DNA from: Massilia varians
Lineage (GTDB): Bacteria > Pseudomonadota > Gammaproteobacteria > Burkholderiales > Burkholderiaceae_D
DNA length: 64,000 nt
Assembly (NCBI RefSeq): GCF_027923905.1
Contig: NZ_AP026966.1
Location: forward strand, 3,349,001 to 3,413,000
Direction of reading: 5' to 3'
Shown here piece after piece: positions 24,146 through 50,168 of this stretch (positions within the stretch are counted from its first letter, which is position 1; every line of letters begins with the position of its first letter). A program made the translations under genes and the position numbers. The notes below the pieces were generated by a model. That model saw nothing but the letters and a program-made list of their open reading frames with translations. It made no database searches and was not told the origin of the DNA.

Positions 24146-25087
24146 TCAGTAGATCTCGGAGGCCGCCAGCCTCACCTGCTTGAGCAGCAGGTCCGCGCCC
24201 GGCGCCAGCAGGTGGTCCTGCTGGCGGATGATGCCGAAGGCGTCCATCTTGCAGGGCAGCTCGATCGGCAGGATGCGCATCACGTTCAGCGACGCGTAGT
24301 ACTGCGCCACTTCCTGCGGCATCACGTGCAGCGAATCGGTCTGCTGCAGCAGCGTGGTGATGAGCAGCAGCGCGGTGGTGTCGACCACGTTCACGGGAGG
24401 CTGCAGGCCGGCGCGGCGGAACATCATGTCGAAGCGGTGGCGCAGGATGCTGCCGGGCGGCGGCAGGATCCAGGGCTGGTCGGCGATGTCTTCCAGGCGC
24501 AGGTCCTTCGCTTCGAGCAGCGCATGGCCGGGACGCACCACGGCGCAGGCGGGTTCCTCGGTCAGCTCCTCGTACACCAGGCCGCTCGAGTCTTCCTTCT
24601 CCAGGATGCGGCCGATCATGAAGTCGAGCGTGCCGCGCTGGAGCTTGTCGAGCAGGACGTTGCTGGGCTCGAGGTGCACGCCGATGCGCAGCAAGGGCGC
24701 CTGCTCCTTGATGCGCGCGATCGCGCGCGGCAGCAGCGCCATCGCCGGCGACATGATGACGCCTACTTCCACCTGCCCGGACAGGCCGGCCTTCAGGGCG
24801 ACCAGGTCGTCGTGCGCCAGCGCCAGACTGGTGAGCGCCATGCGCGCGTGGCGGATCATGGTCTCGCCGTAGATGGTCGGTTCCATCCCGCGCGGCAGGC
24901 GCTCGAACAGGCGCACCTCCAGCATCTCTTCCAGGTCCTTGATCTGCTTGGACGCCGCCGGCTGCGTCATGTGGAGTTCCTCGGCCGCGCGGTGGATGTT
25001 GCGGTAGTCGTCCAGCGCGATCAGGAGCAGCAGCTGGCGCGTCTTGAGGCGCGCCTTCAGAAACCAGTTTGGGTTCGTCGTATCCAT
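24146..25087 (-). CDS. LysR-type regulator of the arabinose island (GbpR-like)
   Basis: LysR-type regulator of 313 residues. It begins MDTTNPNWFLKARLKTRQLL, like the GbpR/GguR regulators that control sugar ABC transporters with GguC (AraD1) in alphaproteobacteria and betaproteobacteria. The HTH includes HMTQPAASKQIKDLEEML; the effector domain follows residue 90 (GQVEVGVIMSPA). It sits inside the minus-strand operon: after the importer genes and a GH43 gene, before another GH43 gene. A dyad related to the three island promoters lies 9 bp upstream of its start, suggesting autoregulation. Likely inducer is L-arabinose or a pathway acid; this is inference. Confidence 0.85.
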   Translation of the reverse strand: MDTTNPNWFLKARLKTRQLLLLIALDDYRNIHRAAEELHMTQPAASKQIKDLEEMLEVRLFERLPRGMEPTIYGETMIRHARMALTSLALAHDDLVALKAGLSGQVEVGVIMSPAMALLPRAIARIKEQAPLLRIGVHLEPSNVLLDKLQRGTLDFMIGRILEKEDSSGLVYEELTEEPACAVVRPGHALLEAKDLRLEDIADQPWILPPPGSILRHRFDMMFRRAGLQPPVNVVDTTALLLITTLLQQTDSLHVMPQEVAQYYASLNVMRILPIELPCKMDAFGIIRQQDHLLAPGADLLLKQVRLAASEIY

Positions 25088-25095
25088 CAGGAAAT

Positions 25096-25113
25096 CATAT
25101 CATTTGTGATATC
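25096..25113 (-). promoter_or_regulatory. LysR operator dyad in front of the regulator gene
   Basis: Minus strand reads GATATCACAAATGATATG, matching the pattern GATAYC-N6-GNTATS of the three island promoters; within it ATATCA-N4-TGATAT is a perfect palindrome (25097-25112). It lies 9 bp upstream of the LysR start codon, a position suited to autorepression. Confidence 0.6.
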
Positions 25114-25142
25114 GATCCAATGGAAATGCCGCTCGATGGCTA

Positions 25143-26105
25143 TCACTTGCAGCCAGGCGAGGGGTTGGCGGCCGGCCCTTCCGCCGTTTGCGCCACCGGC
25201 AGCATCTTGCCGTCCGGGCCGTAGTGCAGTTCTTCCACCGCGACCGAGCGGCGGTATTCGCCGCCGGTCGGCAGCTTGCCGTTGTGGTAGAAGATGTAGG
25301 ACTTGCCGTTGAACTCGACGATGGCTTGGTGGATCGTGTTGACGTTGCTGTTCTTTTCCATGATCACCCCGCCGTAGGACCAGGGCCCGGTGGCCGTCGG
25401 GCCGCTCATCACCACGGTCTCTTCGGGGAACTTGCGCGAGTACGAGAGGTAGTAGGTGCCCTTGCGCTTGTGCAGGTAGGCCGCTTCCACGAAGTTGTCC
25501 AGGCCCACGGTGTGGATCGGACCGTCGAGCTCGATCATGTTGGGCTTGAGCTTGGCGTACTTCATCACCGTGTTGCCCCAGTACAGATAGGCCTGGCCAT
25601 CGTCGTCGATGAAGACAGCCGGGTCGATGTCGTCCCACGGAATATCGGTTTGCTTGGTCATGTCGTTGGTGATCAGCGCGGTGCCGCGCGCGTCCACGAA
25701 GGGCCCGGTCGGGCTATCGGAGACGGCCACGCCGATCGCCTTGCTCTTGAGGGCGGCGTGGTCCACAGTCGAATAGAAATAGTACTTGCCATTGCGCTCG
25801 ACGATGTCGGAAGCCCAGGCGTCGCGCCCGGCCCACTTGAAGGTGCTGTAGCGCAGGGGCGAACCGTGATCGGTCCACTTCTTCATGTCGCAGCTGGAGT
25901 AGACGCGCCACTCGTTCATCACGTACTCCTTGCCGCCGACGGGCGCTTCGTCCTTGCCGACATAGACGTAGACGCGGCCGTTGTCGACCAGCGCGGCCGG
26001 GTCGGCGGTGAAGATGTCCTTCACGATGGGATTCGAAGCCCCGGCCAGGGGCGCGGCCAATGCAGCGGCCAGTCCGGCCACGAGTACGGACATCTTATTC
26101 ATCAC
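25143..26105 (-). CDS. Secreted GH43 alpha-L-arabinofuranosidase/xylosidase-like enzyme
   Basis: GH43 enzyme of 320 residues with a signal peptide (ending LAGASNP). Propeller landmarks are IFTADPAALVDNGRVYVYVG (base Asp), DIDPAVFIDDDGQAYLYWG (middle Asp) and NFVEAAYLHKRKGTYYLSY (acid Glu). This fits debranching arabinofuranosidases of the CjAbf43A type, though xylosidase activity cannot be excluded. It is 26 bp downstream of yjfF and upstream of the LysR gene in the importer operon, which supports a role in freeing the arabinose that the importer takes up. Confidence 0.85.
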   Translation of the reverse strand: MMNKMSVLVAGLAAALAAPLAGASNPIVKDIFTADPAALVDNGRVYVYVGKDEAPVGGKEYVMNEWRVYSSCDMKKWTDHGSPLRYSTFKWAGRDAWASDIVERNGKYYFYSTVDHAALKSKAIGVAVSDSPTGPFVDARGTALITNDMTKQTDIPWDDIDPAVFIDDDGQAYLYWGNTVMKYAKLKPNMIELDGPIHTVGLDNFVEAAYLHKRKGTYYLSYSRKFPEETVVMSGPTATGPWSYGGVIMEKNSNVNTIHQAIVEFNGKSYIFYHNGKLPTGGEYRRSVAVEELHYGPDGKMLPVAQTAEGPAANPSPGCK

Positions 26106-26131
26106 GTCTCCTTATATATTGCTCTTATTTA

Positions 26132-27109
26132 TTAGCTTTGCTTCTGACGGAAGCCCATCAGGCGTTGGACCACGCAGAACACGAACAGCAGCGCGCCGAT
26201 GACGATCTTGGTCCACCAGGAGCTGAGGGTGCCGTCGAAGGCGATCAGGGTCTGGATGGTGCCGAGCACCAGCACGCCCGACAGCGCGCCGAGGATGTAG
26301 CCGTAGCCGCCGGTCAGCAGGGTGCCGCCGATGACCACCGCCGCGATGGCATCGAGCTCGGTGCCCTGCGCATGCAGGCCGTACCCGGACAGCATGTAGA
26401 ACGAGAACAGCAGGCCGCCCAGCGCCGCGCAGAAGCCGCTGAAGGCATACACCGCTACCTTGGTGCGGCCCACGGCCAGGCCCATCATCGCGGCCGACTG
26501 CTCGTTGCCGCCGATGGCGTACACCGCGCGTCCGAAGGACGAGTAATGCGCCATCCACACCGCCAGCAGCAGCATGGCGATCGCGATCAGGGCGCCCGGC
26601 GACAGGAAGCCGCCCAGGAAGGGCAACTGGGTCTGCGACATGGCCACGAACAGCGGATCCTCGATGGTGATCGACTCGATGCTGATCAGGTAGCACAGGC
26701 CGCGCGCCAGGAACATGCCGGCCAGGGTGACGATGAAGGGCTGCAGGCGGAAGACATGGATGATGGTGCCCATCGCGCCGCCAAATGCTGCGCCGCCCAG
26801 CAGCACGATGGCGATCACCGCCAGCGGCGGCCAATGCGCCACCTGCAGCAGCCAGGCCGCAACCATGGTGCTCAGGGCCAGCACCGCGCCCACAGACAGG
26901 TCGATGCCGCCGGATAGGATCACGACGCCCATGCCGATCGCCAGCACCAGCAGGAAGGCGTTGTCGATCAGGAGATTGAGCATCACCTGCAGCGACAGGA
27001 AGCCGTCATATGCCTGGCCGCCGGCCAGCAGCATGGCCGCCAGCAGGACCACGGTCGCGGCCGAGGTGAACCAGGGCGCGCTCGACACGCGCGTGGTCAA
27101 TGCGTTCAT
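26132..27109 (-). CDS. yjfF: Sugar (furanose) ABC transporter permease, YjfF-like
   Basis: Inner-membrane permease of the BPD_transp_2/AraH family, 325 residues, about nine helices. Start at 27109 follows AGGAGG and overlaps the ytfT stop by 4 bp (ATGA). Conserved segment LSGGIDLSVGAVLALSTMVA and the late loop DAIAAVVIGGTLLTGGYGYI are typical. It is the fourth gene of ytfQ-ytfR-ytfT-yjfF, which in E. coli imports galactofuranose and in Shewanella (AraUVWZ) L-arabinose. Here the surrounding arabinan enzymes point to L-arabinose, probably its furanose form. Confidence 0.9.
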   Translation of the reverse strand: MNALTTRVSSAPWFTSAATVVLLAAMLLAGGQAYDGFLSLQVMLNLLIDNAFLLVLAIGMGVVILSGGIDLSVGAVLALSTMVAAWLLQVAHWPPLAVIAIVLLGGAAFGGAMGTIIHVFRLQPFIVTLAGMFLARGLCYLISIESITIEDPLFVAMSQTQLPFLGGFLSPGALIAIAMLLLAVWMAHYSSFGRAVYAIGGNEQSAAMMGLAVGRTKVAVYAFSGFCAALGGLLFSFYMLSGYGLHAQGTELDAIAAVVIGGTLLTGGYGYILGALSGVLVLGTIQTLIAFDGTLSSWWTKIVIGALLFVFCVVQRLMGFRQKQS

Positions 27110-28170
27110 GCCGCCCTCCTCTTCCACAGGCTCTTGAACTGGTCGGACTGCGAGATGCAGACCAGGAACACCACGCTTGCTTTCACGACCATGTTGACCT
27201 CGGGCGGGACGCCCAGCGAATAGATGGTGTAGGTGAGCGTCTGGATGATCAGCGCCCCGATGATGCTGCCCATCAGCGAGAACTTGCCGCCGGCGAGCGA
27301 GGTGCCGCCCAGCGTGACCGCAAGGATGGCGTCCAGCTCCAGCATCAGGCCGGCGTTGTTGGCGTCCGCGCTCTTCACATTGGAACTGATCATCAGCCCG
27401 GCCATGCCGGCGCAGGCCGCGCTGAACACATAGACGAAGACGACCAGGGCCGCGGTGCGGATGCCGGCCAGGCGCGCCGCCACCGGATTGATGCCAACCG
27501 CCTGGATGAACAGGCCCAGCGCCGTGTGCCGCAGCAGCAGGCTGGTGGCGGCGAACACCGCGATCACCACGAACAGCGCGAACGGCAGTCCGAGCAAGTA
27601 GCCGCTACCCAGGAAGAAGAAGGGCTGGTAGTAGACGGTAACGATCTGGCCGTCGGTGAGCAGCTGGGCCAGGCCGCGCCCGGCCACCATCAGGATCAGG
27701 GTGGCGACGATCGGCTGCAGGCCCAGGCCCGCCACCAGTGCCCCGTTCCACAGCCCGCACAGCACGGCGGCGCCCAAGGCGGCCAGCAGGGCCAGTCCCA
27801 TCGGCGTCTGCGCCACGTACTCGGGCACGCCGTTGTTGATCACCATGGTGCCGCCGATGAGCATCGAGGCGACGGTGCCGGACAGGGCCACCACCGCGCC
27901 CACCGAGATGTCGATGCCGCGCGTGGCGATCACCAGGGTCATGCCGATCGCGGCCAGCATCAAGGGAGCGGCGCGGTTGACGATGTCGACCAGGCTGCCG
28001 TACAGGTGGCCGTCCTTGATCTCCAGGTGGAAGAAGCCGGGGATCAGGAGGAAGTCGATCAGGAGCAGCAGCGCCAGCGCGGCCAGGGGGCGGAACAGCG
28101 AATGCTGGAACAACGAGGGTTTTGCCGACTGCGCGGGCGCCAGCACGGTTTCCTTGACAGCGACGTTCAT
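27106..28170 (-). CDS. ytfT: Sugar (furanose) ABC transporter permease, YtfT-like
   Basis: Second permease of the importer, 354 residues. Shows VIATRGIDISVGAVVALSGTVA and DAILAVTLGGTSLAGGKFSL, the counterparts of the conserved YjfF segments. It forms a heterodimer with YjfF and docks the ATPase YtfR. Both ends overlap neighbours by 4 bp (ytfR stop with its ATG, its stop with the yjfF ATG), so expression is tightly coupled. Confidence 0.9.
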   Translation of the reverse strand: MNVAVKETVLAPAQSAKPSLFQHSLFRPLAALALLLLIDFLLIPGFFHLEIKDGHLYGSLVDIVNRAAPLMLAAIGMTLVIATRGIDISVGAVVALSGTVASMLIGGTMVINNGVPEYVAQTPMGLALLAALGAAVLCGLWNGALVAGLGLQPIVATLILMVAGRGLAQLLTDGQIVTVYYQPFFFLGSGYLLGLPFALFVVIAVFAATSLLLRHTALGLFIQAVGINPVAARLAGIRTAALVVFVYVFSAACAGMAGLMISSNVKSADANNAGLMLELDAILAVTLGGTSLAGGKFSLMGSIIGALIIQTLTYTIYSLGVPPEVNMVVKASVVFLVCISQSDQFKSLWKRRAA

Positions 28171-29690
28171 GCGCTGCCCTCCCCGGCGATCACGTGCAGC
28201 ACCGTGCTGTCGTCCAGCTCACCGCGGCCGTACTCGCCGCAGGCCTTGCGGTCGCGCATGACCACGATGCGGTCGCTCACGCGCAGCACCTCGGGCAGCT
28301 CGGACGAGATGAACAGAATCGACATGCCCTTGCGGCACAGGGTGGTAACGTAATCCATGATTTCCTGCTTGGCGCGCACATCGATGCCGCGCGTCGGTTC
28401 GTCGAGGATCATCAGCTTCGGCTCGGTGGCCAGCCAGCGCGCCAGCAGGACCTTCTGCTGGTTGCCGCCGGAGAGCGTGCCGATCGGCGTTTCGATGCTC
28501 GCCGTCTTGATCCCCAGTTGTTTCACATAGTGGGCCGCGAGTTCCTGCTGGCGGCGCATCGGGATCGCGCGCAGCAATCCCTGGCGCGCCTGCAGCGCCA
28601 GGATCAGGTTTTCGCGCACCGACAGGGCCAGGATCGCGCCCTCGTGCTTGCGGTCTTCGGAGCAGAAGCCGATGCCCTGTTGGATGGCGTCGCGCGGCGT
28701 GGAGAACACGCGGCTGCGGCCGTCGATTTCGATCGCGCCGGCGTCGGCCTTGTCGGCCCCGAACAGCAGGCGCGCGGTCTCGGTGCGGCCGGAACCGAGC
28801 AGGCCGGCCAGGCCGAGCAATTCTCCCTTGCGGATCTCGAGGTCGATCGGGTTCAGCACCCCCTTGCGCGCCAGCGCCTTGGTGCGCAGGAAGGTCTCGG
28901 TGGCTTCGCCGGCTGCGGCGCAGGCACTGCCGGTTTCTTCCTGCGCCTCGGCCGGTGCGCCGATCATCTTGTTGACCAGGGCCAGGCGCGACAGCTCGCT
29001 GCACAGGTACTCGCCTTCGCGCTCGCCGTTGCGCATCACGGTGATGCGGTCGGAGATCGCGTAGGTCTGGTCGAGGAAGTGGGTGACGAACAGGATCGCC
29101 ATGCCATGCTCGCGCAAGCCGCGCAGCACCGAGAACAGCAGCTGGACTTCGTTCTCGTCCAGGCTGGAGGTGGGTTCATCGAGGATCAGGACCTTGCTCG
29201 AAATGTTCAGGGCGCGCGCGATCGCCACCATCTGCTGGATCGCCAGCGGATAGCTCGACAGGGGCTGGGAGACGTCAACATCGATCTGCAGGCGTTTTAA
29301 TAGTTCGGCAGCCTGGCGGCGCATGCCGCGCCAATCGATCATGCCGAAGCGGCGTGGGTAGCGTCCGATGAAGATGTTTTCCGCAACCGACAGGTTCGGG
29401 CACAGATTCACTTCCTGGTAGACCGTGCTGATGCCGAGCTGCTGGGCGTCTTGGGTGGACGTCGGCGCGATCGCGCGGCCATCCAGCTGGATGCTGCCGC
29501 GCTCGGGCTGGTAGACGCCGGTCAGGACCTTGATGAGGGTCGACTTGCCGGCGCCGTTCTGGCCCATCAACGTGTGGACTTCGCCGGGAAACAGGCGCAG
29601 GCCCGCATCAAGCAGCGCCTTCACGCCCGGGAACTGCTTGTGGATGCCGGTCACTTCCAGGACCGGCGCCACGGTGGTCGAGGCGAGCAT
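28167..29690 (-). CDS. ytfR: Sugar (furanose) ABC transporter ATP-binding protein, YtfR-like
   Basis: Double-domain ABC ATPase of 507 residues, as for YtfR, AraG and RbsA. First half: Walker A GQNGAGKST (near residue 43), signature SSYPLAIQQMVAIARAL, Walker B VLILDEPTSSLD. Second half: degenerate Walker A GLLGSGRTE, signature LSGGNQQKVLLARWL, Walker B LMILDEPTRGID. Start at 29690 chosen for its position 7 bp after the ytfQ stop. The degenerate second Walker A is normal in this group. Confidence 0.94.
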   Translation of the reverse strand: MLASTTVAPVLEVTGIHKQFPGVKALLDAGLRLFPGEVHTLMGQNGAGKSTLIKVLTGVYQPERGSIQLDGRAIAPTSTQDAQQLGISTVYQEVNLCPNLSVAENIFIGRYPRRFGMIDWRGMRRQAAELLKRLQIDVDVSQPLSSYPLAIQQMVAIARALNISSKVLILDEPTSSLDENEVQLLFSVLRGLREHGMAILFVTHFLDQTYAISDRITVMRNGEREGEYLCSELSRLALVNKMIGAPAEAQEETGSACAAAGEATETFLRTKALARKGVLNPIDLEIRKGELLGLAGLLGSGRTETARLLFGADKADAGAIEIDGRSRVFSTPRDAIQQGIGFCSEDRKHEGAILALSVRENLILALQARQGLLRAIPMRRQQELAAHYVKQLGIKTASIETPIGTLSGGNQQKVLLARWLATEPKLMILDEPTRGIDVRAKQEIMDYVTTLCRKGMSILFISSELPEVLRVSDRIVVMRDRKACGEYGRGELDDSTVLHVIAGEGSA

Positions 29691-29697
29691 GGCCGCC

Positions 29698-30660
29698 TCA
29701 GTATTTACGGTTCGGGAATTCCTTGGCCGCGACTTCAGCTGGGAACACACCCTCGTTCACGGTAATACGCTTCGGCACCGGCTTGCCCGCCTTGACCATT
29801 TGCGCGGTCTGGATCAGCTGCGGCCCGAGCAGTGGGTTGCACTCGACGGTGACGTTGAGCTTACCCTGCAACATGGCCTCGAACGCGCCGCGCACGCCGT
29901 CGATCGACACCACCAGGATGTCCTTGCCCGGTTTCAGGCCCGCTTCCTCGATGGCCTGGATCGCGCCGATCGCCATGTCGTCGTTGTGCGCGTACAGCAC
30001 GTTGATGTTCTTGCGGTCGGATTTGAGGAAGGCTTCCATCACCTCCTTGCCCTTGGCGCGTGTGAAGTCGCCGGTCTGCGAGCGGATGATCTTCAGCTTC
30101 GGATGGTCCTTGATGACTTCAGCGAAGCCGGCCTTGCGGTCGATCGCCGGCGCCGAGCCGACGGTGCCCTGCAGCTCGACGATGTTGTAGCTGCGGTTCG
30201 GGTTCTTCTTCTGGTGCTCGACCAGCCAGCGCGCGGCGCGGCGGCCCTCTTCCACGAAATCGGAACCGATGAAGCTCACGTACAGCGAGGGGTCGCTGAC
30301 CTTGACGGCGCGGTCGGTGAGGATGACCGGGATCTTGGCGGCCTTGGCTTCGCGCAGCACGGTGTCCCAGCCGGATTCGACGACCGGCGAGAAGGCGATT
30401 ACGTCGACGCGCTGGGCGATGAAGGAGCGGATTGCCTTGACCTGGTTTTCCTGGCGCTGCTGGGCGTCGGCGAACTTCAGGTTGACGCCGGCCGCCTTGG
30501 CGGCGCTCTTGATCGAGGCGGTGTTGGCGGTGCGCCATTCGCTTTCGGCGCCGACCTGGGAGAAGCCGATGGTGAGGGGTTTGGCGGCGTAGGCCGGCAT
30601 CGCGCAAGCGATGGCACAGGCGGCGGCGCTACCCAGGAAGGTTCTGCGGGTGAGGGTCAT
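29698..30660 (-). CDS. ytfQ: Periplasmic sugar-binding protein of the importer, YtfQ-like
   Basis: Solute-binding protein of 320 residues, first gene of the importer operon. The start at 30660 follows AAGG and opens a signal with a twin-arginine motif, MTLTRRTFLGSAAACAIACA, suggesting Tat export. The mature part begins KPLTIGFSQVGAESEWRTAN, very like E. coli YtfQ, which binds galactofuranose. Ligand is probably L-arabinofuranose in this arabinan island (inference). Its promoter holds one of the three 43-bp conserved blocks. Confidence 0.92.
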   Translation of the reverse strand: MTLTRRTFLGSAAACAIACAMPAYAAKPLTIGFSQVGAESEWRTANTASIKSAAKAAGVNLKFADAQQRQENQVKAIRSFIAQRVDVIAFSPVVESGWDTVLREAKAAKIPVILTDRAVKVSDPSLYVSFIGSDFVEEGRRAARWLVEHQKKNPNRSYNIVELQGTVGSAPAIDRKAGFAEVIKDHPKLKIIRSQTGDFTRAKGKEVMEAFLKSDRKNINVLYAHNDDMAIGAIQAIEEAGLKPGKDILVVSIDGVRGAFEAMLQGKLNVTVECNPLLGPQLIQTAQMVKAGKPVPKRITVNEGVFPAEVAAKEFPNRKY

Positions 30661-30714
30661 TACCTTAGTCTCCGGTATTGTTGTTTCGCAATCGTAAGAC
30701 AAAGTGTGATGCTG

Positions 30715-30757
30715 ATCCAATCATATTTGTCTTTGATCAGATACCTGATTTGATATC
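30715..30757 (-). promoter_or_regulatory. Conserved 43-bp LysR-type promoter block upstream of ytfQ
   Basis: One of three same-length blocks in the island. On the plus strand it has TCCAATCATAT, a variable 13-base middle, GATACC and a final GATATC. Read toward the gene, the dyad GATATC-N6-GGTATC lies about 31 bp upstream of a TTGGAT -35, followed after 18 bp by TACGAT. The dyad is centred about 88 bp before the start codon. Confidence 0.75.
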
Positions 30758-30860: not shown

Positions 30861-31751
30861 ATGGCTCGCCGTAGTAACAAGGGTTTGGCAAACGACCTGG
30901 TCGCCCTGCCCTGGCAATTCAGCGCCGCGCTCGCAGTCAGCGCCTTTTTCGGGATCCGCTGGATACTGCCGGGTTTTCTTCCCGAGCGCGGCGCGCTGTC
31001 GGCACTGAAAGCGCATCTCGAGGCGCTGTCCTGGATCGTCTTTGCCGCATTGGCCTGCATGGCATTGCTGGCGGCGCTGCGTGCTGGAATCCAGGGGTTG
31101 AAGCAGGCAGCTGGCTTCCGGTCCAGCCGGCAGCGCGCGCGAATGCGCGTCGTCCCGGATGCGCTACCGGTCTCGAAGCCAGGCGCTGCCAGCCTTCCTG
31201 CTGCGCCGACGGCATGGTCGCTCGATGCGCTGCGCACGCTGGAATGGAAGCGCTTCGAGCTGCTCTGCGCCAGGTACTACGAAGCCGTCGGCTTTACCAC
31301 GGCGACCCTGGCCGCGGGGCCGGACGGCGGCATCGACGTCAAGCTGTTCAAGGTCGATCCGGCGAAACCGCTGGCGATCGTCCAGTGCAAGGCCTGGAAT
31401 ACCCATCCGGTCGGGGTCAAGGAAGTTCGCGAGCTGCTCGGCGTGATGGTGCACGAAGGCGTCGGGAGAGGCATCTTCGTCACCACCGGAACCTACACGC
31501 CGGATGCGCTGCAGTTCGGCGCGGCGAACCCGCTCCAGCTGCTCGACGGCGAGGCATTCGCCAGGAAAATCCTCGACCTCCCGCTCGACAAGCAGAAGGC
31601 GCTGCTCGACGTCGCCTTCGAAGGCGACTACCGCACACCAACCTGCGCCTCCTGCGGCACCAAGATGGTCGCGCGCGACAGCAAGCGCGGGGCATTCTGG
31701 GGCTGCATCTACTACCCGCGCTGCAAGACGACGTTCGCGATGCGCGCCTGA
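30861..31751 (+). CDS. Membrane-anchored Mrr-like restriction endonuclease with C-terminal zinc ribbon
   Basis: Protein of 296 residues and the only plus-strand gene inside the island. Two predicted helices come first (near residues 15-37 and 55-75), then an Mrr_cat/PD-(D/E)XK domain: LRTLEWKRFELLCARYYEAVG, GPDGGIDVKLF (catalytic Asp) and AIVQCKAW (Gln-x-Lys). A C4 zinc ribbon of the topoisomerase type ends it: CASCGTKM and GCIYYPRCKTTF. GGAG lies 6 bp before the chosen ATG; an ATG at 30849 is also possible. No methyltransferase is nearby, so it is probably a stand-alone type IV-like nuclease or DNA-repair factor; the membrane anchor is unexplained. Confidence 0.82.
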   Translation: MARRSNKGLANDLVALPWQFSAALAVSAFFGIRWILPGFLPERGALSALKAHLEALSWIVFAALACMALLAALRAGIQGLKQAAGFRSSRQRARMRVVPDALPVSKPGAASLPAAPTAWSLDALRTLEWKRFELLCARYYEAVGFTTATLAAGPDGGIDVKLFKVDPAKPLAIVQCKAWNTHPVGVKEVRELLGVMVHEGVGRGIFVTTGTYTPDALQFGAANPLQLLDGEAFARKILDLPLDKQKALLDVAFEGDYRTPTCASCGTKMVARDSKRGAFWGCIYYPRCKTTFAMRA

Positions 31752-35117: not shown

Positions 35118-35142
35118 TGCGAACTCCTGAACAGTCGCGACC

Positions 35143-35256
35143 CGTAGGGTGGGCAGGTTTCCTGCCCACGCGGTGATAGTCTGCTGCGAGATCGACGGGC
35201 ACGAAATCGGAGCCGTTATCGATCACCGCGTGGGCGGCGAAGCCGCCCACCCTACG
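35143..35256. repeat. BIME-like pair of palindromic repeats between GH51 and arabinanase genes
   Basis: Two palindromic units in opposite orientation about 48 bp apart. Unit one runs from GTAGGGTGGGC to GCCCACGCGGTGAT; unit two from ATCACCGCGTGGGC to GCCCACCCTACG. Related units occur at 40778-40856 and 45671-45743, with the reverse arrangement. They fill most of the 141-bp gap inside an apparent operon. Confidence 0.85.
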
Positions 35257-35258
35257 AA

Positions 35259-36803: not shown

Positions 36804-36828
36804 TACTGTCTCCTGTTCTGTCGAACTC

Positions 36829-40721: not shown

Positions 40722-40777
40722 GGCCCGGTCTCCCAATATTGATGTTCGTTCGACGATGCGATTGTTCAAACGCTGGT

Positions 40778-42614: not shown

Positions 42615-42675
42615 GCCTTCTCCTTGGGCGTGTAATTCAGCAATGAGGAAAGTCTACAATGCGGCCCAGATAACT

Positions 42676-42718
42676 TTCCAATCAAATATTTCGCAATATT
42701 GATACCGAATTTGTTATC
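42676..42718 (-). promoter_or_regulatory. Conserved 43-bp LysR-type promoter block upstream of araC
   Basis: Same-length match to blocks at 30715 and 50126. Toward araC it reads GATAAC-N6-GGTATC (dyad), then about 22 bp to TTGATTGGAA, whose TTGGAA is a -35 with weak -10 options 17-19 bp on. The dyad overlaps the stop codon of the lactonase gene. It starts a new transcript at araC inside the gene row. Confidence 0.78.
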
Positions 42719-43598
42719 TGAGCCCGCCGAGAAAGCGCGATTCCGGCAGGCCTTGCAGGTCGAGTTCGTGGCGGAACATGGCGCCCGACAGGGGGGCGGC
42801 CAGGCGGTCGCCCGCCGTCATGCCGAGCCATGCGCTGCTGAGGTACAGGGTCGACAGACCGGGGCCGCCGAAAGCCGGACAGCTCGGTTGCGGCGCAGCC
42901 AGGGCCAGCACCCGGTCCAGCCGGCCCTCGGGCGTGTAGCGCATCACCTGCCCCGCTCCCCAGCGCGTGGTCCACAGGCAGCCTTCGGCGTCGATGCAGG
43001 AACCGTCCGGTTCGCCCGGCGCCGCGTCGGCCGCGACGAACACCCGCGAGGCGCCGATCGCGCCGCTGTGCGGGTCGTAGTCGCAATACCGGATCTCGCG
43101 CGTGACCGAATCGGCATAGTACATACGCCGCCCATCCGGGCTGAAGCAGATGCTGTTGGCAATCGCGGCAGGCGCAAGCGGCAGGCGCTCGAGGCTCAGG
43201 TCCGTATTCAGGCGGTAGAAGCCGCCCAGCGCGCGCTTGGGGCCGTCCTCCTGGTTGAACATGCCGAACACGAAGCGGCCCTGGCGGTCGCAACGCCCGT
43301 CGTTCAGGCGGGTGGCGGGCAGCCCGGCTTCGACCTCCACGATGTGTCGCAGCTCGCCGGTCGAGAAGCGGAAGGAGGCCAGGCCGGACGCCAGCCCCAG
43401 CAGCAGGCAATCGTCGCTGTCCGTCAGCGCGAAGCAGCACAGGCGCTCCGGCATGCGCCACTTGAGGCTCCTGCCGGTCGCCGGCGAATACGACCACAGG
43501 GCCGCCGCCGGAATGTCGGTCCACAGCAGGCGCCCGGTGCGCTCGCACCACAGCACGCATTCGCCCAGTTCGTGGCGCTCGTCGAGGAAGTGCTCCAT
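42714..43598 (-). CDS. SMP-30/gluconolactonase family L-arabinolactonase
   Basis: Six-bladed propeller lactonase of 294 residues that would open L-arabinono-1,4-lactone to L-arabinonate. Metal ligands are recognisable: Glu in HELGECVLW, Asn in AIANSICFSPDG and Asp in EPDGSCIDAEGCLW. The ATG at 43598 overlaps the galM stop; a GTG at 43601 is an alternative. It lies directly upstream of the araC promoter block and downstream of galM, so it follows the order epimerase, lactonase, dehydratase, AraD1, dehydrogenase. Confidence 0.88.
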   Translation of the reverse strand: MEHFLDERHELGECVLWCERTGRLLWTDIPAAALWSYSPATGRSLKWRMPERLCCFALTDSDDCLLLGLASGLASFRFSTGELRHIVEVEAGLPATRLNDGRCDRQGRFVFGMFNQEDGPKRALGGFYRLNTDLSLERLPLAPAAIANSICFSPDGRRMYYADSVTREIRYCDYDPHSGAIGASRVFVAADAAPGEPDGSCIDAEGCLWTTRWGAGQVMRYTPEGRLDRVLALAAPQPSCPAFGGPGLSTLYLSSAWLGMTAGDRLAAPLSGAMFRHELDLQGLPESRFLGGLR

Positions 43599-44668
43599 CA
43601 CGATTGCGCGCCCTGCACCGAGAAGCGCCAGCGCGACTCGGTGCGGTACACCTGGCCGGGGCGCAGGATCACGTTCGGGAAGCGCGGCCGGTTCGGCGAA
43701 TCCGGGAAATGCTGGGGTTCCAGGCAGAAGCCGCTGCGATGCCCGTGGCTGCGGCCCTTGCCGGATAGCGAGCCGTCCAGGAAGTTCCCGCTATAGAACT
43801 GCACGCCCGGCTCCTCGGTGAACAGCTCCAGCACCCTGCCCGAGAGCGGCTCGAGCACGTGGGCCGCGCGCGTCATTTCCCTGCCGTTCGGCTTGTTGAG
43901 CACGAAATTGTGATCGTAGCCCTGGCCATGGCGCAGCTGCTTGTCCGGCTGGCCGACGCGCTCGCCGATCGGGCGCGGCAGGCGGAAATCGAAGGGCGTG
44001 CCGGTGACCGGCGACAGCGTGCCCAGCGGGATCGCTGCCGCATCGATGCCCACGAAGGTGTCGGCATCGATGGTGAGCAGGTGCTCCAGGATGTCGCCCT
44101 CGCCGGCCAGGTTGAAGTAGCTGTGCTGGGTGAGGTTGACCGGGGTGGGCCGGTCGGTGACGGCCTCCACGCGCATCACCAGCTCATTGTCGTCGTTCAG
44201 CCCGTAGACCACGCTGACGTCCAGGTTGCCTGGATAGCCCTGTTCGCCGTCCGGGCTGCGGTAGGCCAGGCGCAGGCTGTCGCCCTCGACGCTGGCCTGC
44301 CACTTCACCTTGTGGAAGCCGCCGGGCCCGCCATGCAGGTGGTGGTCGCCGTCGTTCGCCGGCAGGACGATTTCGCGGCCGTCGAGCATGAAGCGGCCCT
44401 TGGCAATGCGGTTGCCGTAGCGGCCGATCAGGGCGCCGAAGTATGGATGCTCGCCTTCGTAGGCGCCCAGGCCGTCCAGGCCCAGCACCACGTCGGCCAG
44501 GCGCCCCTCGCGGTCGGGCGCGTGCAGCTCGGTGATGATGCCGCCGAAATCGATGATTCTGGCCACCAGGCCGTTCGCGTTGGCCAAGGTGTATTCGGTG
44601 ATGGCCTGGCCGTTGGCCAGCCGGCCATAAGGCGCCAGGGTGATGCCGCGCGTGTTCAGGTCTCGCAA
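43598..44668 (-). CDS. galM: Aldose 1-epimerase (mutarotase)
   Basis: Interconverts alpha and beta anomers of free sugars, here probably arabinose or galactose set free by the island's hydrolases. About 356 residues. Family segments: GRYGNRIAKGRF, HHLHGGPGGFHKV (catalytic His region), NLTQHSYFNLAG (second His) and EEPGVQFYSGNFLDG (catalytic Glu). A TTG start at 44668 is chosen since AGGAAG lies 7 bp upstream; a GTG at 44683 would add five residues. No signal peptide, so cytoplasmic. Gap to the upstream GH43 gene is 23 bp. Confidence 0.88.
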   Translation of the reverse strand: MRDLNTRGITLAPYGRLANGQAITEYTLANANGLVARIIDFGGIITELHAPDREGRLADVVLGLDGLGAYEGEHPYFGALIGRYGNRIAKGRFMLDGREIVLPANDGDHHLHGGPGGFHKVKWQASVEGDSLRLAYRSPDGEQGYPGNLDVSVVYGLNDDNELVMRVEAVTDRPTPVNLTQHSYFNLAGEGDILEHLLTIDADTFVGIDAAAIPLGTLSPVTGTPFDFRLPRPIGERVGQPDKQLRHGQGYDHNFVLNKPNGREMTRAAHVLEPLSGRVLELFTEEPGVQFYSGNFLDGSLSGKGRSHGHRSGFCLEPQHFPDSPNRPRFPNVILRPGQVYRTESRWRFSVQGAQS

Positions 44669-44691
44669 TGCGTTCTTCCTCACTCGGTGGC

Positions 44692-45642
44692 TCAGTCGGT
44701 CGATGCGCGGCCGAACACCGGCATGCCTGCTTCGTCCCAGCGCAGGGTCTTCACGAAGGTATGGCGGTCGGGGTTCCACAGCGGGTCGCCGACAATCTCG
44801 GTATACGTGCGGGCGTGGTAGACCAGCAGCACGGTGTCGCCGTCTTCGGCATAGGTGAAGCTGTTGTGGCCCGGGCCGTAGATGCCGTGCTCGTAGCAGG
44901 TGCGCAGGACCGGCTCGCGCGACTTGGTCCAGGAGCCCGGGTCCAGCAGATCGGCCTCTTCATGGGCCCACAGCAGGCCCATGGCGTAGTTCTCGTCGGT
45001 GGCACTGGCCGAATAACTGATGAATACCCTTCCGTTGCGGCGCAGTACCGACGGACCTTCGTTGACCCGGAAGCCGCGCGTCTCCCAGTCGAACTCGGGT
45101 TTGCTGAGCATGACCGGCTTGCCCTCGATCTGCCACGGCGTCTTCATCGGCGCGATGTAGAGGTTCGAATTGCCTTCGATCTCGTGATCCTTCTGCGCCC
45201 ACAGGTAGTACAGCTGGCCCTTGTGCGTGAAGGTGGTAGCGTCCAGGCAGAAACTGTCGATGCCGGTGTCGACCTGGCCCATGAACTCCCATTCGCCCTC
45301 GAGCGGGTTGGCATTGCGGTTGCGGATCGCGTACATGCGGTGCTGGAACAGCTGGTACTTGATCTCGCGGCTCGGGGCGGCCGCAAAGTAGATATACCAG
45401 GCGCCCCCGTTGAAGTGGATCTCCGGCGCCCATACCAGTTCGCAGTAGGGGCCGGTGTCCGGCTTGGTCCAGACGTCCACCGTCTCGGCATCCGCCAGGC
45501 CGGCAATGGTGGTGGCGCGGCGCAGTTCGATGCGGTCGTATTGGGGCACCGAGGCGGTGAAATAGTAGTAGCCGTCCGTGTGCTTGTAGATGTAGGGGTC
45601 GGCGCGCTGTTCGATCAGGGGTTTCAGGATGGTTTCTTGCAT
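44692..45642 (-). CDS. Cytoplasmic GH43 exo-alpha-L-arabinofuranosidase
   Basis: GH43 enzyme of 316 residues, same subfamily as 23110-24129 (EQRADPYIYKHTDGYYYFTASVPQYDRIELRR is nearly the same blade one), but without a signal peptide: it begins MQETILKPLIEQRADPYIY. Middle Asp in SFCLDATTFTHKG and acid Glu in FRVNEGPSVLRRNG. It should cut short arabino-oligosaccharides after import. The neighbouring GPH symporter upstream would bring such oligosaccharides in, and galM follows. Confidence 0.87.
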   Translation of the reverse strand: MQETILKPLIEQRADPYIYKHTDGYYYFTASVPQYDRIELRRATTIAGLADAETVDVWTKPDTGPYCELVWAPEIHFNGGAWYIYFAAAPSREIKYQLFQHRMYAIRNRNANPLEGEWEFMGQVDTGIDSFCLDATTFTHKGQLYYLWAQKDHEIEGNSNLYIAPMKTPWQIEGKPVMLSKPEFDWETRGFRVNEGPSVLRRNGRVFISYSASATDENYAMGLLWAHEEADLLDPGSWTKSREPVLRTCYEHGIYGPGHNSFTYAEDGDTVLLVYHARTYTEIVGDPLWNPDRHTFVKTLRWDEAGMPVFGRASTD

Positions 45643-45670: not shown

Positions 45671-45743
45671 CACCGCGTGGGCGGGAGACCCGCCCACCCT
45701 ACAAAGGCATTCGTAGGGTGGGCAGGTTTCCTGCCCACGCGGT
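45671..45743. repeat. BIME-like palindromic repeat pair between GH43 and symporter genes
   Basis: ACCGCGTGGGC through GCCCACCCTAC, a short spacer, then GTAGGGTGGGC through GCCCACGCGGT. Third copy of the family, in the same face-to-face arrangement as 40778-40856. Confidence 0.85.
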
Positions 45744-45752
45744 CAACGCATG

Positions 45753-47105
45753 TCAGCCGGCGACGTAGCCGGCTGTGCGCATGTCGGCCTTGACAGTGTC
45801 GTAATACGCGTCGCTGATCCGGTACTTGAACATCAGCACGCCCATCAGGAAGTGGAAGAAGCCCGGGATCACCGACAGCATCAGGGCGATGCCCTGCAGC
45901 GCCAGCGTCGACTGCGCCTGGTTGGGCTGGTACTGGAAGTAATCCAGCAGGATACCCACCATGCCGCCCGCGATCGCCATGCCGACCTTCTGGCACACCG
46001 AGATGCCGCCAAAGGCGAAGCCCGACACGCGCTTGCCGGTCTTGACCTGGCCGTAGTCGATGGTCTCGGCGATCGCCGACCAGAACACCGGCGCGTGCAG
46101 GTCGACCACCAGCGACAGGATGAAGTACAGGACGAAGGCCAGCACGATGTCGCCCGGCTGCACCAGGAAGTAGATCATCAGGCTGATGAGGGCGACCAGG
46201 ATCTGCGTGTTGCGGAACAGCTTGACCTTGCAGTAGAACTTGGTGGTCCAGGTGGACACCACCATGGCCAGGATCGCGGCCGCCACGCCCGTGGACAGGA
46301 AGGCCGAGACGATGGCGGTGTCGCCGCCCAGGTAGTATTTGGCGTAGTAGATCGCCACCGAGCCGCGGATCACGTAGCCGATGGTGCCGGTCACGCACAC
46401 CGCGCACAGGATCAGCCACTGGTCGTTGCGCATCAGGACGCGCACCTGGTCGATGAGCGGCTGCTTGTCGACCTTGTGGACGACGCGTTCGGTGGTGGTG
46501 AAGAAGCACAGCAGGAACAGCAGCACGCCCATCGCGGCCATCACCGCCATCGCCACCTGGTAGCCGGCGGCCGGGTTCTTGGGGTCCCACCAGCTGGCCA
46601 GCATCGGCACGATGATGGTCACCATGAAGGCGCCGATCTTGGCGAAGAACAAACGGTAGCCGTTGGCCGACAGGCGTTCCTGCGGGTCGGACGTCAATCC
46701 GCTGATCAGGGAGATGTAGGGAATGCCGACGCCCGCCGTCATCAGGGTCATCAGGATGTAGGTCGAATAGGCCCAGATGAGCTTTGCATCGTAGCTCCAG
46801 TCGGGCGTGGTGAAGACCAGGAACACGCTGAGGCCATAGGGCACGGAGAGCAGCAGCAGCCAGGGCCGGTAGCGCCCCCAGCCGGTGAGCACCGCGTCGG
46901 TCACCTGCCCCATCGCGAGGTCGGCCACGGCGCCCACCACCTTCACGGCCACGAACAGCGCCGCCAGGTCGGCGGTGTGGATGCCGTAGATGTCGGTGTA
47001 GAAGAAGGTGATGATCAGCATCATCGACGAGATCACCACGTTGAGCGCCATGTCGCCGGCGCCGAAACCCGCTTTTTCGAGGGTGGAGAGTTTGTGTGTC
47101 CGCAT
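45753..47105 (-). CDS. GPH-family sugar:cation symporter
   Basis: Glycoside-pentoside-hexuronide:cation symporter of 450 residues with about twelve helices. It starts KLSTLEKAGFGAGDMALN, and the loop GQVTDAVLTGWGRYRPWLLL is the conserved MelB/XynP-like motif after helix 2. Transports oligosaccharides or pentosides with Na+ or H+. Between the TonB receptor (28 bp upstream) and a cytoplasmic arabinofuranosidase, it most likely moves arabino-oligosaccharides across the inner membrane, parallel to the ABC importer for the monosaccharide. Confidence 0.88.
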   Translation of the reverse strand: MRTHKLSTLEKAGFGAGDMALNVVISSMMLIITFFYTDIYGIHTADLAALFVAVKVVGAVADLAMGQVTDAVLTGWGRYRPWLLLLSVPYGLSVFLVFTTPDWSYDAKLIWAYSTYILMTLMTAGVGIPYISLISGLTSDPQERLSANGYRLFFAKIGAFMVTIIVPMLASWWDPKNPAAGYQVAMAVMAAMGVLLFLLCFFTTTERVVHKVDKQPLIDQVRVLMRNDQWLILCAVCVTGTIGYVIRGSVAIYYAKYYLGGDTAIVSAFLSTGVAAAILAMVVSTWTTKFYCKVKLFRNTQILVALISLMIYFLVQPGDIVLAFVLYFILSLVVDLHAPVFWSAIAETIDYGQVKTGKRVSGFAFGGISVCQKVGMAIAGGMVGILLDYFQYQPNQAQSTLALQGIALMLSVIPGFFHFLMGVLMFKYRISDAYYDTVKADMRTAGYVAG

Positions 47106-47133
47106 GTGCCTTCCCTTCTGAACGACGCGGGGC

Positions 47134-50031
47134 CTACATCTTCCAGCGCAAGGCGACCGAGACCGAACGTCCGACCTGGACCGTACCGAAATTGGTCAAC
47201 TGCTCGTTGCCCGCATTGCCGAAGTGGTAGTACTGCCGCTGCATTTCGTTGGTCAGGTTGATGGCGCCGACATCGACCGACATCCTGTCGTCGATCTTGT
47301 AGGACACCTGCATGTCCACGCTCTTTTCGGGTTGACGCCAGATACCGATCGGATTGGCAAACAGGGCGGCTTCGTTGGCGGCCAGGAAGGCGGAACGCCA
47401 GACATAGGACAAGCGCGCGCTGACCGGACCCTTCTCATAAGCCAGGGTAGCGTTGTAGGAGCGATCGGAGACCCCGAAGAACGGTGTCTCGAGCTGGGCG
47501 ATGATCTCGCCGGCGCTATTCGCCTCGGGAACGTTCTGTGACGAGCTCAGCTTGGTAAAGCTGCCCTGGAAACCCAGGCCGTCCAGCGGGCCGGGGAGCC
47601 ACTTCGGGAAGTAGATCAAGCCGATCTCGACGCCCTTGATGGTGCCGTCGGAGGCGTTGACCGGCGAGTTGATGACGTAGTCATAGCCGTTCGTATGGTC
47701 GCCGCCCGAGGTCGAGTTGCGGAACGGGTCGTCCGCCGGATCGACGTGAATCTTGCGACGCAGGGGCACGACCAGGCCGTCGATCTTGCGCTTGAACAGC
47801 GTGCCATAGAGTGCGCTGTCCTTCTGGAAGTACCACTCCCCGGTCAGGTCGAAGTTGGTCGAGAGCGTCGGTTTCAGGTCCGGATTGCCGCCGCTGCCCG
47901 AGCCATACCCCACCCGCGACACGTCGTCGGCGAGTTGCAGGACAGGGTTCAGGTCGCCGAAGTTCGGGCGCCGCAGGGTTTTACCGAAGTTGAAGCGCGT
48001 GACGACGTCCTTGGCCGGATCGTAGGTCAGGGTCAGGCTGGGCAGGAACCTGCTGGTCGACTTGTCGGCGCCGGACGCCGTCACCGCCCGGGTCGTGGCA
48101 TCGACCTTATAGAAGCGCATGTCGGTATTGACCCTGGTATAGCGCACGCCGGCATTGGCGCGCAGACGGTTGCCGAACAGCTCGCTCTGGAAATTCCCCA
48201 TGAGGTAGAGATTGCTCGTCTTTTCCTTGATCTCGAAGGTCTTCTGCAGGCTCAGTTGGTCCGTGGTCAGGAAGTTGCTGTTGACCGAGTGGTAGAGCTT
48301 GCGCCACTCGTCGATGTTGTCGCGGATGGTATAGGCATTCGGTTCCACCCACGAGCGCGGAACGTCCGAGATGTCCTTGCCGAAGTTCGCGTTGGTAATG
48401 GCATACTGCGGACCCAGCGAGGCAAGGTTGCGGCCCAGGAAGGCCGATTGCGTCCGGTTGGCCTCCGACGCCTTGCGGACGTCGTGGCGCAGCCCGAATT
48501 GAAGCGTCTGCAGCGCACCCCAGTCGGCGTCGAACACGCCCGCCAGGCTGGCTGTCGCGGCGCTGCCCTTGTTGCGGTTGGCGTTATCGTAGAACTCCGC
48601 CACATTCCACTTGCTCGGATCGACCAGGTCGGCATTGTCATTGAAACGGAAGGCGGTATCGCCGCCGGCATTGAAGTCGACGTCGATGGAAGGGGCAACG
48701 CGGTCGATCCGGGTGGCGGTGAATTGCGTGTCGAATTCGCTCGTCTGGAACGACAGGTCGCCGTCCAGTTTCAGGCGCTCGCCGACGTTCCACTTGCCGT
48801 TCAGGGCGTACACGAAGGAATCGGTTTTCGAGGTGGTGTAGTCGCCGCTGTTGAAGCCATACACGTTGTTGACCTTGCGGGACTTGATGACGTTGGTTCC
48901 CGGGAAGGTCGTGATCGTCCCCGCCGGGTTGCTGCCGAGATCGCCCCACCAGTCGACAAAGCTGAACAGCAGCTGATTGAAGGCCTTGTCGCGATACCCG
49001 TTGTACATCGATTCGAAGGTGTAGACCGCATCGCTGTTCGGTTTCCACTGCAGGGCGATATTCGCGGCCGGGCGCTTGCGTTCACCCTGGACGTCGCTCT
49101 GGAAAACGGCGTCGCGCGCCAGATAATACGGAGTGGCCTTGCCGTTGAAATTCAGCGTCGAGCCCGCGGCCATCGGCAAGCCGGTACGGGTACCGGGGGC
49201 CCAGACATCGTTGTCGAAGATGCGCTGCAAGGGCGTATAACCGGCCGGCACTTCGGCCGCATTCGGGCTGGTGAATGGCACCATGGCGCCCGGCGTCACG
49301 CTCTCGTTGCGGTATCTGGTCTGGGTGGCGGCCAGGTTGACCAGCGCGCCGACCTCGCCAAAGCCGGTCTCCCAGCGATTGCTGAACATGGCGCTGAGCT
49401 GGGGGTTCCATTTTTTTGCAGGATCCAGGTAGGTCTCGCGCGCCGAGATCGACACTTGCGGGCCCTTGAAATCGAAGGGCCGCAGCGACTTGACGTCGAT
49501 CTGGCCGGCGATGCCGGTTTCCAGCTGGCTGGCGTCACGCGTCTTGTACACGTCGATCTGGCGCACCAGGGTCGAGGGAATGTCCTGCAGCGCGACCTGG
49601 GTGCCCGAGGCGGTAAAGATATTCCGCCCGTTCCAGGTGGTCTGGACGTCGGGCAGGCCGCGGATGGACAAGGCGCCGACTTCGCCACCGGCGCGGTTGG
49701 TGACCTGGATCCCCGTCACGCGCTGCAGCGCTTCGACGACATTGTTATCGGGGAGCTTGCCGATGTCTTCGGCAACGACCGATTCCACCACCTGGTCGCT
49801 GATGCGCTTGATCGCCAGGCTCTTGATGAGCGACGCCTTGACGCCCGTGACGACCACGGTCTGCGTGTCGCCCGGCTCGGTCGTTTCGGCACTGGCGGCG
49901 GGGGAGATTTCCTGGGCGCCGACCGTGGCGGCGCCCATCAGGCCGGCGCCGGCGAGTGCGGCGACCGTGGCGCGAAGTGCGAAGGCGTGACCGGTACTGG
50001 CCGCAACGCGGCCGAACGATGTGCGTTTCAT
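47134..50031 (-). CDS. TonB-dependent receptor for arabinan/pectin oligosaccharides
   Basis: Outer-membrane receptor of 965 residues, of the large Caulobacter/Xanthomonas sugar-receptor type. The ATG at 50031 follows AGGAGAC and opens a signal peptide ending VGAQEIS. The plug domain begins after DTQTVVVTGVKASLIKSLAI and contains LPDNNVVEALQRVTGIQVT; the barrel ends in the expected aromatic-rich strand SVSVALRWKM, though the last residue is Met rather than Phe. Upstream lies the third 43-bp promoter block, and the symporter gene follows, so uptake through both membranes is co-regulated with araC and the importer. Confidence 0.92.
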   Translation of the reverse strand: MKRTSFGRVAASTGHAFALRATVAALAGAGLMGAATVGAQEISPAASAETTEPGDTQTVVVTGVKASLIKSLAIKRISDQVVESVVAEDIGKLPDNNVVEALQRVTGIQVTNRAGGEVGALSIRGLPDVQTTWNGRNIFTASGTQVALQDIPSTLVRQIDVYKTRDASQLETGIAGQIDVKSLRPFDFKGPQVSISARETYLDPAKKWNPQLSAMFSNRWETGFGEVGALVNLAATQTRYRNESVTPGAMVPFTSPNAAEVPAGYTPLQRIFDNDVWAPGTRTGLPMAAGSTLNFNGKATPYYLARDAVFQSDVQGERKRPAANIALQWKPNSDAVYTFESMYNGYRDKAFNQLLFSFVDWWGDLGSNPAGTITTFPGTNVIKSRKVNNVYGFNSGDYTTSKTDSFVYALNGKWNVGERLKLDGDLSFQTSEFDTQFTATRIDRVAPSIDVDFNAGGDTAFRFNDNADLVDPSKWNVAEFYDNANRNKGSAATASLAGVFDADWGALQTLQFGLRHDVRKASEANRTQSAFLGRNLASLGPQYAITNANFGKDISDVPRSWVEPNAYTIRDNIDEWRKLYHSVNSNFLTTDQLSLQKTFEIKEKTSNLYLMGNFQSELFGNRLRANAGVRYTRVNTDMRFYKVDATTRAVTASGADKSTSRFLPSLTLTYDPAKDVVTRFNFGKTLRRPNFGDLNPVLQLADDVSRVGYGSGSGGNPDLKPTLSTNFDLTGEWYFQKDSALYGTLFKRKIDGLVVPLRRKIHVDPADDPFRNSTSGGDHTNGYDYVINSPVNASDGTIKGVEIGLIYFPKWLPGPLDGLGFQGSFTKLSSSQNVPEANSAGEIIAQLETPFFGVSDRSYNATLAYEKGPVSARLSYVWRSAFLAANEAALFANPIGIWRQPEKSVDMQVSYKIDDRMSVDVGAINLTNEMQRQYYHFGNAGNEQLTNFGTVQVGRSVSVALRWKM

Positions 50032-50125
50032 ACGTCTCCTGGTGTCGTTGTCGTTATTGCCGCTGTGTCGCGGCTTTGCTGTTATTACATGCTCGACAGG
50101 GATGGTAGGCGGTGCAATGAGATCG

Positions 50126-50168
50126 TTCCAATCAAATTTTTGGCCGATCCGATACCGAAACATGTATC
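50126..50168 (-). promoter_or_regulatory. Conserved 43-bp LysR-type promoter block upstream of the TonB receptor
   Basis: Same-length match to 30715 and 42676. The dyad here is GATAC-N8-GTATC, then TTGATTGGAA with -35 TTGGAA and a TACCAT -10 candidate 18 bp on. Its dyad is centred about 128 bp before the start codon, so the leader is longer than in the other two. Confidence 0.75.

Follow-up and report, generated by a model that had tools for sequence, protein, structure and literature searches.

We analyzed a 64,000-nucleotide stretch of the Massilia varians genome (hereafter the window) and found three 43-bp blocks that are very probably the upstream halves of LysR-activated promoters, with the LysR-type regulator encoded at 24146–25087 on the minus strand as their common switch. 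The initial annotation had proposed that a sugar importer, a catabolic pathway and outer-membrane uptake are likely one regulon, and this was supported by the prediction of sites upstream of ytfQ in relatives, the fixed position of the −10 element, the co-occurrence of the sites with the LysR gene and the presence of sites in the divergent regions beside LysR genes.

The genes behind the three blocks all lie on the minus strand, and their strand and the gaps between them suggest three operons. The ytfQ operon would consist of genes for a ytfQ/gafA-like periplasmic sugar-binding protein (29698–30660), a ytfR/gafB-like ABC ATPase (28167–29690), ytfT-like (27106–28170) and yjfF-like (26132–27127, scanned from 27109) ABC permeases of family PF02653, a GH43 glycosidase (25143–26105; PF04616), the LysR regulator and, downstream of the LysR gene, a further GH43 glycosidase (23110–24129; PF04616). 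The binding protein appears closely similar to YtfQ/GafA, its 395.9 bits against the NCBIfam YtfQ model for galactofuranose falling under the equivalog cut-off of 510, and the ATPase reached 673.5 bits with YtfR, under the cut-off of 850. The gene at 25143–26105 was considered as the lactonase of this operon and rejected, being a GH43 gene; neither a lactonase nor a semialdehyde dehydrogenase was found among the cluster genes scanned against NCBIfam and Pfam. A gene for an Mrr-type restriction endonuclease (30861–31751, plus strand) is divergent from ytfQ and has the intergenic region in common with it.

The araC operon would begin with an IlvD/Edd-type sugar-acid dehydratase, a probable L-arabonate dehydratase (40869–42614; 947.7 bits with PRK06131, cut-off 539, and 832.1 with the L-arabinonate dehydratase model PRK13016, whose cut-off of 882 is not reached). 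It would continue with a GguC/AraD1 family protein, probably acting at the next pathway step (39729–40727; NF040903, 523.7 bits, over the cut-off of 340), an SDR aldose dehydrogenase (38898–39665; XylDhXylBProt, 337.4 bits, under the cut-off of 400) and, by Pfam, GH97, GH51-type arabinofuranosidase, GH43 and GH127 beta-L-arabinofuranosidase genes (31759–38748). The third operon would comprise the TonB-dependent receptor (47134–50031; TIGR01782, 563.5 bits, over 310), an MFS_2 sugar transporter (45753–47105; PF13347), a GH43 glycosidase (44692–45642; PF04616) and an aldose 1-epimerase (43598–44671; PRK11055, 300.4 bits, over 240).

The blocks upstream of ytfQ (30715–30757), araC (42676–42718) and the TonB-receptor gene (50126–50168) read as described in the initial annotation and align without gaps. 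Within the alignment, 23 of 43 columns are identical, compared with 4 of the 60 before it and 5 of the 60 after it, and the elements TCCAATCA, GATACC and TATC are fixed in all three. Read toward the genes, the dyad proposed earlier, GATAMC-N6-GGTATC, holds for ytfQ (GATATC-N6-GGTATC, 30740–30757) and araC (GATAAC-N6-GGTATC, 42701–42718), whereas that of the TonB receptor (GATACA-N6-GGTATC, 50151–50168) deviates at the sixth base. All three, on the minus strand, are predicted LysR-type recognition sites on the evidence of the block alignment and, for ytfQ, of conservation upstream of that gene. The distance of about 31 bp from the dyad to the TTGGAW hexamer proved correct when measured from center to center; from the dyad end to the hexamer it is 19 bp.

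We scanned the whole 5.58-Mb genome for the 18 fixed bases (TCCAATCA-N16-GATACC-N8-TATC), allowing up to three mismatches, as chance copies elsewhere would have counted against the proposal. The scan returned three matches, all with no mismatch and all being the three blocks; the reversed pattern gave one match. As the pattern was taken from the blocks themselves, the scan shows how rare they are, and independent support has to be sought in other genomes. By itself, the dyad GATACC-N8-TATC is found at eight distinct places (nine rows, with one palindrome counted twice). Four of the five places outside the blocks are within open reading frames and, having no −35 element, were taken as chance matches, while the fifth (211836) precedes a GH3 glycosidase gene and has ATTAG at the right distance. 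It is hardly credible that the blocks are a common strong promoter consensus or recent copies with no regulator-specific meaning: they do include the −35 element and are followed by a −10 downstream, but only three copies exist in 5.58 Mb, their flanks are unrelated, and the dyad is outside the core promoter and kept across genera.

All three predicted promoters read on the minus strand. For ytfQ (30691–30720), a −35 TTGGAT (30715–30720) and a −10 TACGAT (30691–30696) are separated by an 18-bp spacer, with a predicted start near 30684; for araC (42651–42681), TTGGAA (42676–42681) and TAGACT (42651–42656) are 19 bp apart, with a start near 42644; and for the TonB receptor (50102–50131), TTGGAA (50126–50131) and TACCAT (50102–50107) are 18 bp apart, with a start near 50095. 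We studied this anatomy in 79 distinct sites that contain ATTGG and have a profile score of at least 25. In 69 of them, a TAnnnT −10 element started at offset 19 behind the 42-mer, and in eight at offset 20 (77 of 79 together), while none of the 79 had one at offsets 12–18, where about two per offset are expected by chance. The fixed −10 offset identifies TTGGAW as the −35 with a spacer of 18 bp (19 bp for araC), and it places the dyad center at −64.5 (−65.5 for araC). The LysR-type architecture claimed for the dyad near −65 is supported by this, with the center at about −64.5 as reckoned from the −10 and a predicted start; reckoned in this way, the blocks carry a dyad of the ATA-n10-TAT type near −65.

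With capitals for bases present in at least 80% and small letters for those in at least 60% of the sites, the 79-site consensus is GATA-N3-AAa-N2-G-N-TATC-g-N8-aAAAAa-N-TgATTGGA-t-N-g-N-TAT-N12-TA-N2-AT. Columns 47–49, the TAT within the spacer, and the AT of a GAT overlapping the −35 are each present in at least 80% of the 79 sites; the closing C needed for a full ATC half is not conserved. We infer that the spacer TAT and the GAT overlapping the −35 make a loose GAT-N8-TAT centered near −31, a candidate LysR activation site.

For support from outside the window, we trained a profile on 21 distinct sites before dehydratase, TonB or MFS genes (two from the window and 19 from relatives), excluding the ytfQ promoters, and searched the stretch of at most 400 bp before ytfQ in 80 LysR loci. 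The training set was not fully independent of the ytfQ block, as the 19 sites from relatives had been found by the consensus of all three window blocks. A usable ytfQ start was present in 71 loci and lacking in nine. The best upstream site reached at least 5 bits in 70 of the 71 and at least 10 bits in 68, although many loci come from close relatives and the 70 are not 70 independent events; the loci belong to Massilia, Janthinobacterium, Pseudoduganella, Duganella, Undibacterium and Roseateles. The two scores were reached by 0.95 and 0.83% of 4000 random windows of 400 bp drawn from these loci, some of them with real sites. A consensus scan at three mismatches found sites in 53 of the 80 loci. 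In one genome (G306), a TonB receptor 81% identical to that of the window carries a site (two mismatches) although it is located approximately 0.55 Mb away from the cluster, while the in-cluster TonB receptor is another protein (31%) with a site of its own.

A variant site, GATACC-N6-GATATC-N16-TTATTAG, stands before a GH3 glycosidase gene outside the window (genome 211813–211853; G000:C1, locus L178). We compared 30 GH3 loci, consisting of 19 orthologues (at least 72% identity), of which 18 were scored over 450 bp upstream (L246 has too little upstream sequence), and 11 paralogues (44–47%). A site scoring at least 25 was found in 14 of the 18 orthologues, the four without being L231, L232, L233 and L245; in L232 and L233, a separate search placed the site just past the scanned stretch. 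None of the 11 paralogues scored above −4, and random windows from the GH3 loci, real sites included, had a median of −19.9 and 95 and 99% points of −1.0 and 35.5. The −10 was at offset 19 in 11 of the 14 sites but not in the other three, M. varians's own included, and in this genome the GH3 promoter is therefore a less certain member of the regulon than the three blocks. GH3 orthologues of at least 75% identity were present in 19 of 39 LysR-positive vs. none of 22 LysR-negative genomes of the genus. A LysR paralogue of about 40% identity was considered as the reader of GH3-type sites and rejected: the seven LysR-negative genus genomes having only this paralogue (38–40%) gave no match, at one mismatch, to the site in its TTATTRG form.

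To relate the sites to the regulator, we recorded sites with at most two mismatches in 294 genomes of the family, 122 of which were LysR-positive (at least 60% identity) and 172 LysR-negative; these genomes are related, and the counts are not independent. Two or more sites were found in 82 of the LysR-positive vs. 2 of the LysR-negative genomes (LysR thus accompanying 82 of 84), and one or more in 102 vs. 27. Among the 27 same-genus genomes of this sample, at least one site was present in all 13 LysR-positive and none of the 14 LysR-negative genomes. At the same stringency, 40 of the 122 LysR-positive genomes had fewer than two sites and 20 had none. We take the two LysR-negative genomes with multiple sites to be assembly effects and no true exceptions: in G238, the LysR gene and its neighbors are broken by frameshifts, and in G213, the contig stops inside ytfR, ahead of the expected position of LysR.

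The second sample consisted of 61 genomes of the genus, 39 with LysR (in G323 over half its length) and 22 without, scanned at up to three mismatches, and 47 of the 61 had a match. Eight of the 22 LysR-negative genomes had one to three matches at three mismatches. The inspected matches, those in G316, G126 and G301 and one of the two in G239, were judged chance; G280, G193 and G296 also have matches. The remaining genome, G303, has sites before araC (two mismatches) and ytfQ (three mismatches; G303:C9, loci L224 and L225), while the 17 kb that follow yjfF contain no LysR orthologue and none with more than 30% identity was found genome-wide; its listed contamination is 7%. We regard G303 as a real exception that speaks against the LysR protein as the binder.

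The LysR gene and the sites move together as parts of one gene cluster, and their co-occurrence alone therefore does not identify the binder. A site is located between LysR and a divergent gene in four loci (L011, L016, L019 and L030), the neighbor being, as named by eye, a porin-like protein of 364–378 residues in three and an SMP-30-lactonase-like protein in one, and in L182, a site adjoins a divergent LysR gene with 68% identity. Seven plasmid loci encode LysR relatives of 41–59% identity. In Paraburkholderia, Diaphorobacter and Azospirillum lipoferum, a site with up to three mismatches is in the divergent region of the LysR gene, and in Azospirillum brasilense, it stands before ytfQ; the plasmid loci of Comamonadaceae (L163), Halomonas (L165) and Methylobacterium (L168) showed no site at three mismatches.

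The window LysR matched 49 NCBIfam models, of which the 25 listed are LysR-type regulators, the best spanning residues 13–309; its best PDB sequence matches are likewise LysR-type regulators, and the protein qualifies as a full-length member of the type. It is 99% identical to the LysR of M. alkalitolerans and, at E ≤ 1e-20, matches only itself in the genome. The best curated model is PcaQ with 181.8 bits, under the cut-off of 303.8 and thus short of an equivalog assignment. Its identity is approximately 41% both with the LysR encoded next to chvE in A. brasilense and with that on the Halomonas plasmid, and its relatives are probably GbpR-, AraR- and PcaQ-like LysR proteins. The available excerpt of PMC5002191 gives ATA-n10-TAT as the site spacing of PcaQ and places the inverted repeats of OccR at −64 and −33. 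The window dyad has exactly the PcaQ spacing; different from PcaQ of Sinorhizobium, the Massilia regulator falls under the model's cut-off and its targets are sugar genes.

The second LysR gene of the window (22114–23088) was considered as the regulator and rejected, since it adjoins a cluster of aromatics type and no match of at least 50% identity was found in the 10-kb flanks of the 80 LysR loci. That separate cluster (8278–23088, plus strand) looks like one for aromatic-compound catabolism, with genes for an MFS carrier, a fatty-acid-hydroxylase-type protein, a molybdopterin oxidoreductase with a CoxG domain, a UbiD decarboxylase, an enoyl-CoA hydratase, an aldehyde dehydrogenase and a porin.

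Variants of the promoter design were seen in further relatives (L170, L171, L172, L175, L177, L179 and L182) before Melibiase_2, TonB, GH39, DgoK, sugar-binding-protein and GH3-like genes, with right ends reading TGATTGG, TCATTGG or TTATTGG, and they may reflect one broad regulon or several LysR paralogues. Such variants before other genes, the ChvE-like among them, mean that more than one regulator may use the design, and together with the sites kept in G303, they lend something to the alternative that the blocks are bound by some other regulator with its gene elsewhere, the LysR gene being a mere neighbor. We nevertheless consider that alternative improbable. Sites stand in the divergent regions of LysR genes and their neighbors even in other genera, the dyad has PcaQ-like spacing, and the window LysR has no second match in the genome. 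Nor do the other LysR candidates, the paralogue and the second window LysR, fit the distribution of sites and loci.

Among comparable systems, GbpR, the LysR regulator of Agrobacterium chvE, acts in the presence of sugars according to the available part of PMC4086400. The window regulator resembles it through A. brasilense, where a LysR approximately 41% identical to it adjoins chvE, ytfQ and sugar-acid genes; the likeness thus runs via this protein and not a characterized GbpR, and the Massilia targets differ in being the ytfQ, dehydratase and TonB operons. The Azospirillum LysR gene beside chvE is presumably GbpR itself, and its neighborhood encodes YtfQ, ChvE, a dehydratase, an aldehyde dehydrogenase, a dihydrodipicolinate-synthase-type protein and a lactonase.

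In Halomonas, the LysR protein AraR is predicted from its motif to control araMFGHCY, genes of arabinose uptake and oxidation, as far as the available part of PMC5507952 describes it. Compared by that description and not by motif, the Halomonas case has one divergent operon and araR, whereas in Massilia the promoters number three to four, lie dispersed and include that of a TonB receptor. In Shewanella ANA-3, GafABCD (ytfQRT-yjfF) is an L-arabinofuranose-specific importer within a predicted AraR regulon (PMC10191376, available portion). The Massilia importer is of the same class and, too, is inside a predicted arabinose regulon. Shewanella AraR is not known to be a LysR protein. With the Shewanella importer specificity and the Halomonas AraR prediction, the arabinose theme is well founded.

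Judged by model scores, the enzymes alone leave room for other pentoses. It is unlikely, but less so than a different binder, that the regulon is real but responds to a different sugar or acid (D-galactose, D-fucose, D-xylose or an aldonate), or to several aldoses in the manner of GbpR. The regulation of chvE by GbpR with sugars (PMC4086400, in part) points this way, as do the sites before ChvE-like and DgoK genes in relatives and the xylose dehydrogenase model that, under its cut-off, best fits the SDR enzyme. Against it, families of the arabinofuranosidase type abound among the window targets, and in Shewanella an importer of this class binds L-arabinofuranose (PMC10191376, in part).

The LysR gene appears to have a promoter of its own. 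The initial annotation noted a related dyad 9 bp before the LysR gene at 24146; the dyad is present (GATATC-N6-GATATG, 25096–25113, minus strand), ending in G rather than C, but the gap is 8 nt before the ATG, and 24146 is the 3′ end of the gene, which starts at 25087 on the minus strand. The right half is contained in an extended −10 element, TGATATGAT (25094–25102), which is followed by 6 nt and the ATG, and by eye no ribosome site was visible between the two. Among the 80 LysR loci, which are related and in Janthinobacterium partly nearly identical, TANNRT was found 5–8 nt before the ATG in 60, at exactly 6 nt in 51, and was missing in 20. Of the 51 loci with the 6-nt distance, 48 have the TGn extension. 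Across the same loci, TGnTANNRT-N6-ATG occurs at 47 of 2651 open reading frame starts, those of LysR included. The simplest reading is that the LysR transcript would be leaderless, starting at the A of the ATG, and that LysR would bind on its own −10. In three loci with divergent LysR (L011, L016 and L019), the ATG instead follows a stretch that by eye resembles a ribosome site.

The dyad may be no operator, with the extended −10 alone under selection, and the left half is indeed absent in 12 of the 51 loci, from several genera. We hold this to be the lesser chance by some way, as 39 of the 51 keep, at the dyad spacing, a left half within one mismatch of GATATC, and further GATATC copies are found upstream in Janthinobacterium. 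These extra GATATC-like copies precede the LysR dyad in L062–L069, L071, L073 and L074, which suggests an array of operator half-sites.

Reading the dyad as an operator, we see about an even chance that the system is a double loop. The regulator would be a late gene of the ytfQ operon that it activates and would also have an internal leaderless promoter, whose extended −10 within an operator half would bring self-repression while the inducer raises the whole operon. The same grammar (dyad, A-tract, ATTGG, 18 bp and TAnnAT) would have been reused in the family to recruit scattered glycosidase and TonB-receptor genes.

In the mechanism that we propose, a tetramer of the LysR protein would sit on the dyad GATANC-N6-GNTATC near −64.5, the recognition site of the −65 type. 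With inducer, it would shift to the weaker site around the −35, the GAT-N8-TAT near −31 that includes TTGGAW, and there contact RNA polymerase at a promoter whose −35 is poor and whose −10 is TAnnAT. Three functions would thereby be switched on jointly: import by the ABC transporter of arabinofuranose type (ytfQRT-yjfF), oxidation of arabinose along with the cutting of arabinan (the araC operon), and uptake across the outer and inner membranes (TonB receptor, MFS carrier and epimerase). By occupying the extended −10 of its own leaderless promoter, LysR would limit its own synthesis, while transcripts running on from the ytfQ promoter may provide a positive loop in addition. The binding, the activation site, the autoregulation, the inducer (L-arabinose, its lactone or L-arabonate), the operon extents and the transcription starts in this scheme are all inferred.

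LysR regulons of such shape are already known, and one for arabinose was predicted earlier in Halomonas. We found no description of one in Massilia or its family in the literature searched, a coverage with most subscription journals outside it; as far as that literature reaches, the regulon in this family, the inclusion of a TonB receptor and dispersed targets, and the leaderless self-overlapping promoter are new. The results provide a testable map of regulator, operator and promoters for the use of plant arabinan in Massilia and its relatives, together with a site model that suffices for finding additional targets across genomes, and the predicted leaderless, self-overlapping LysR promoter would represent a compact feedback design.
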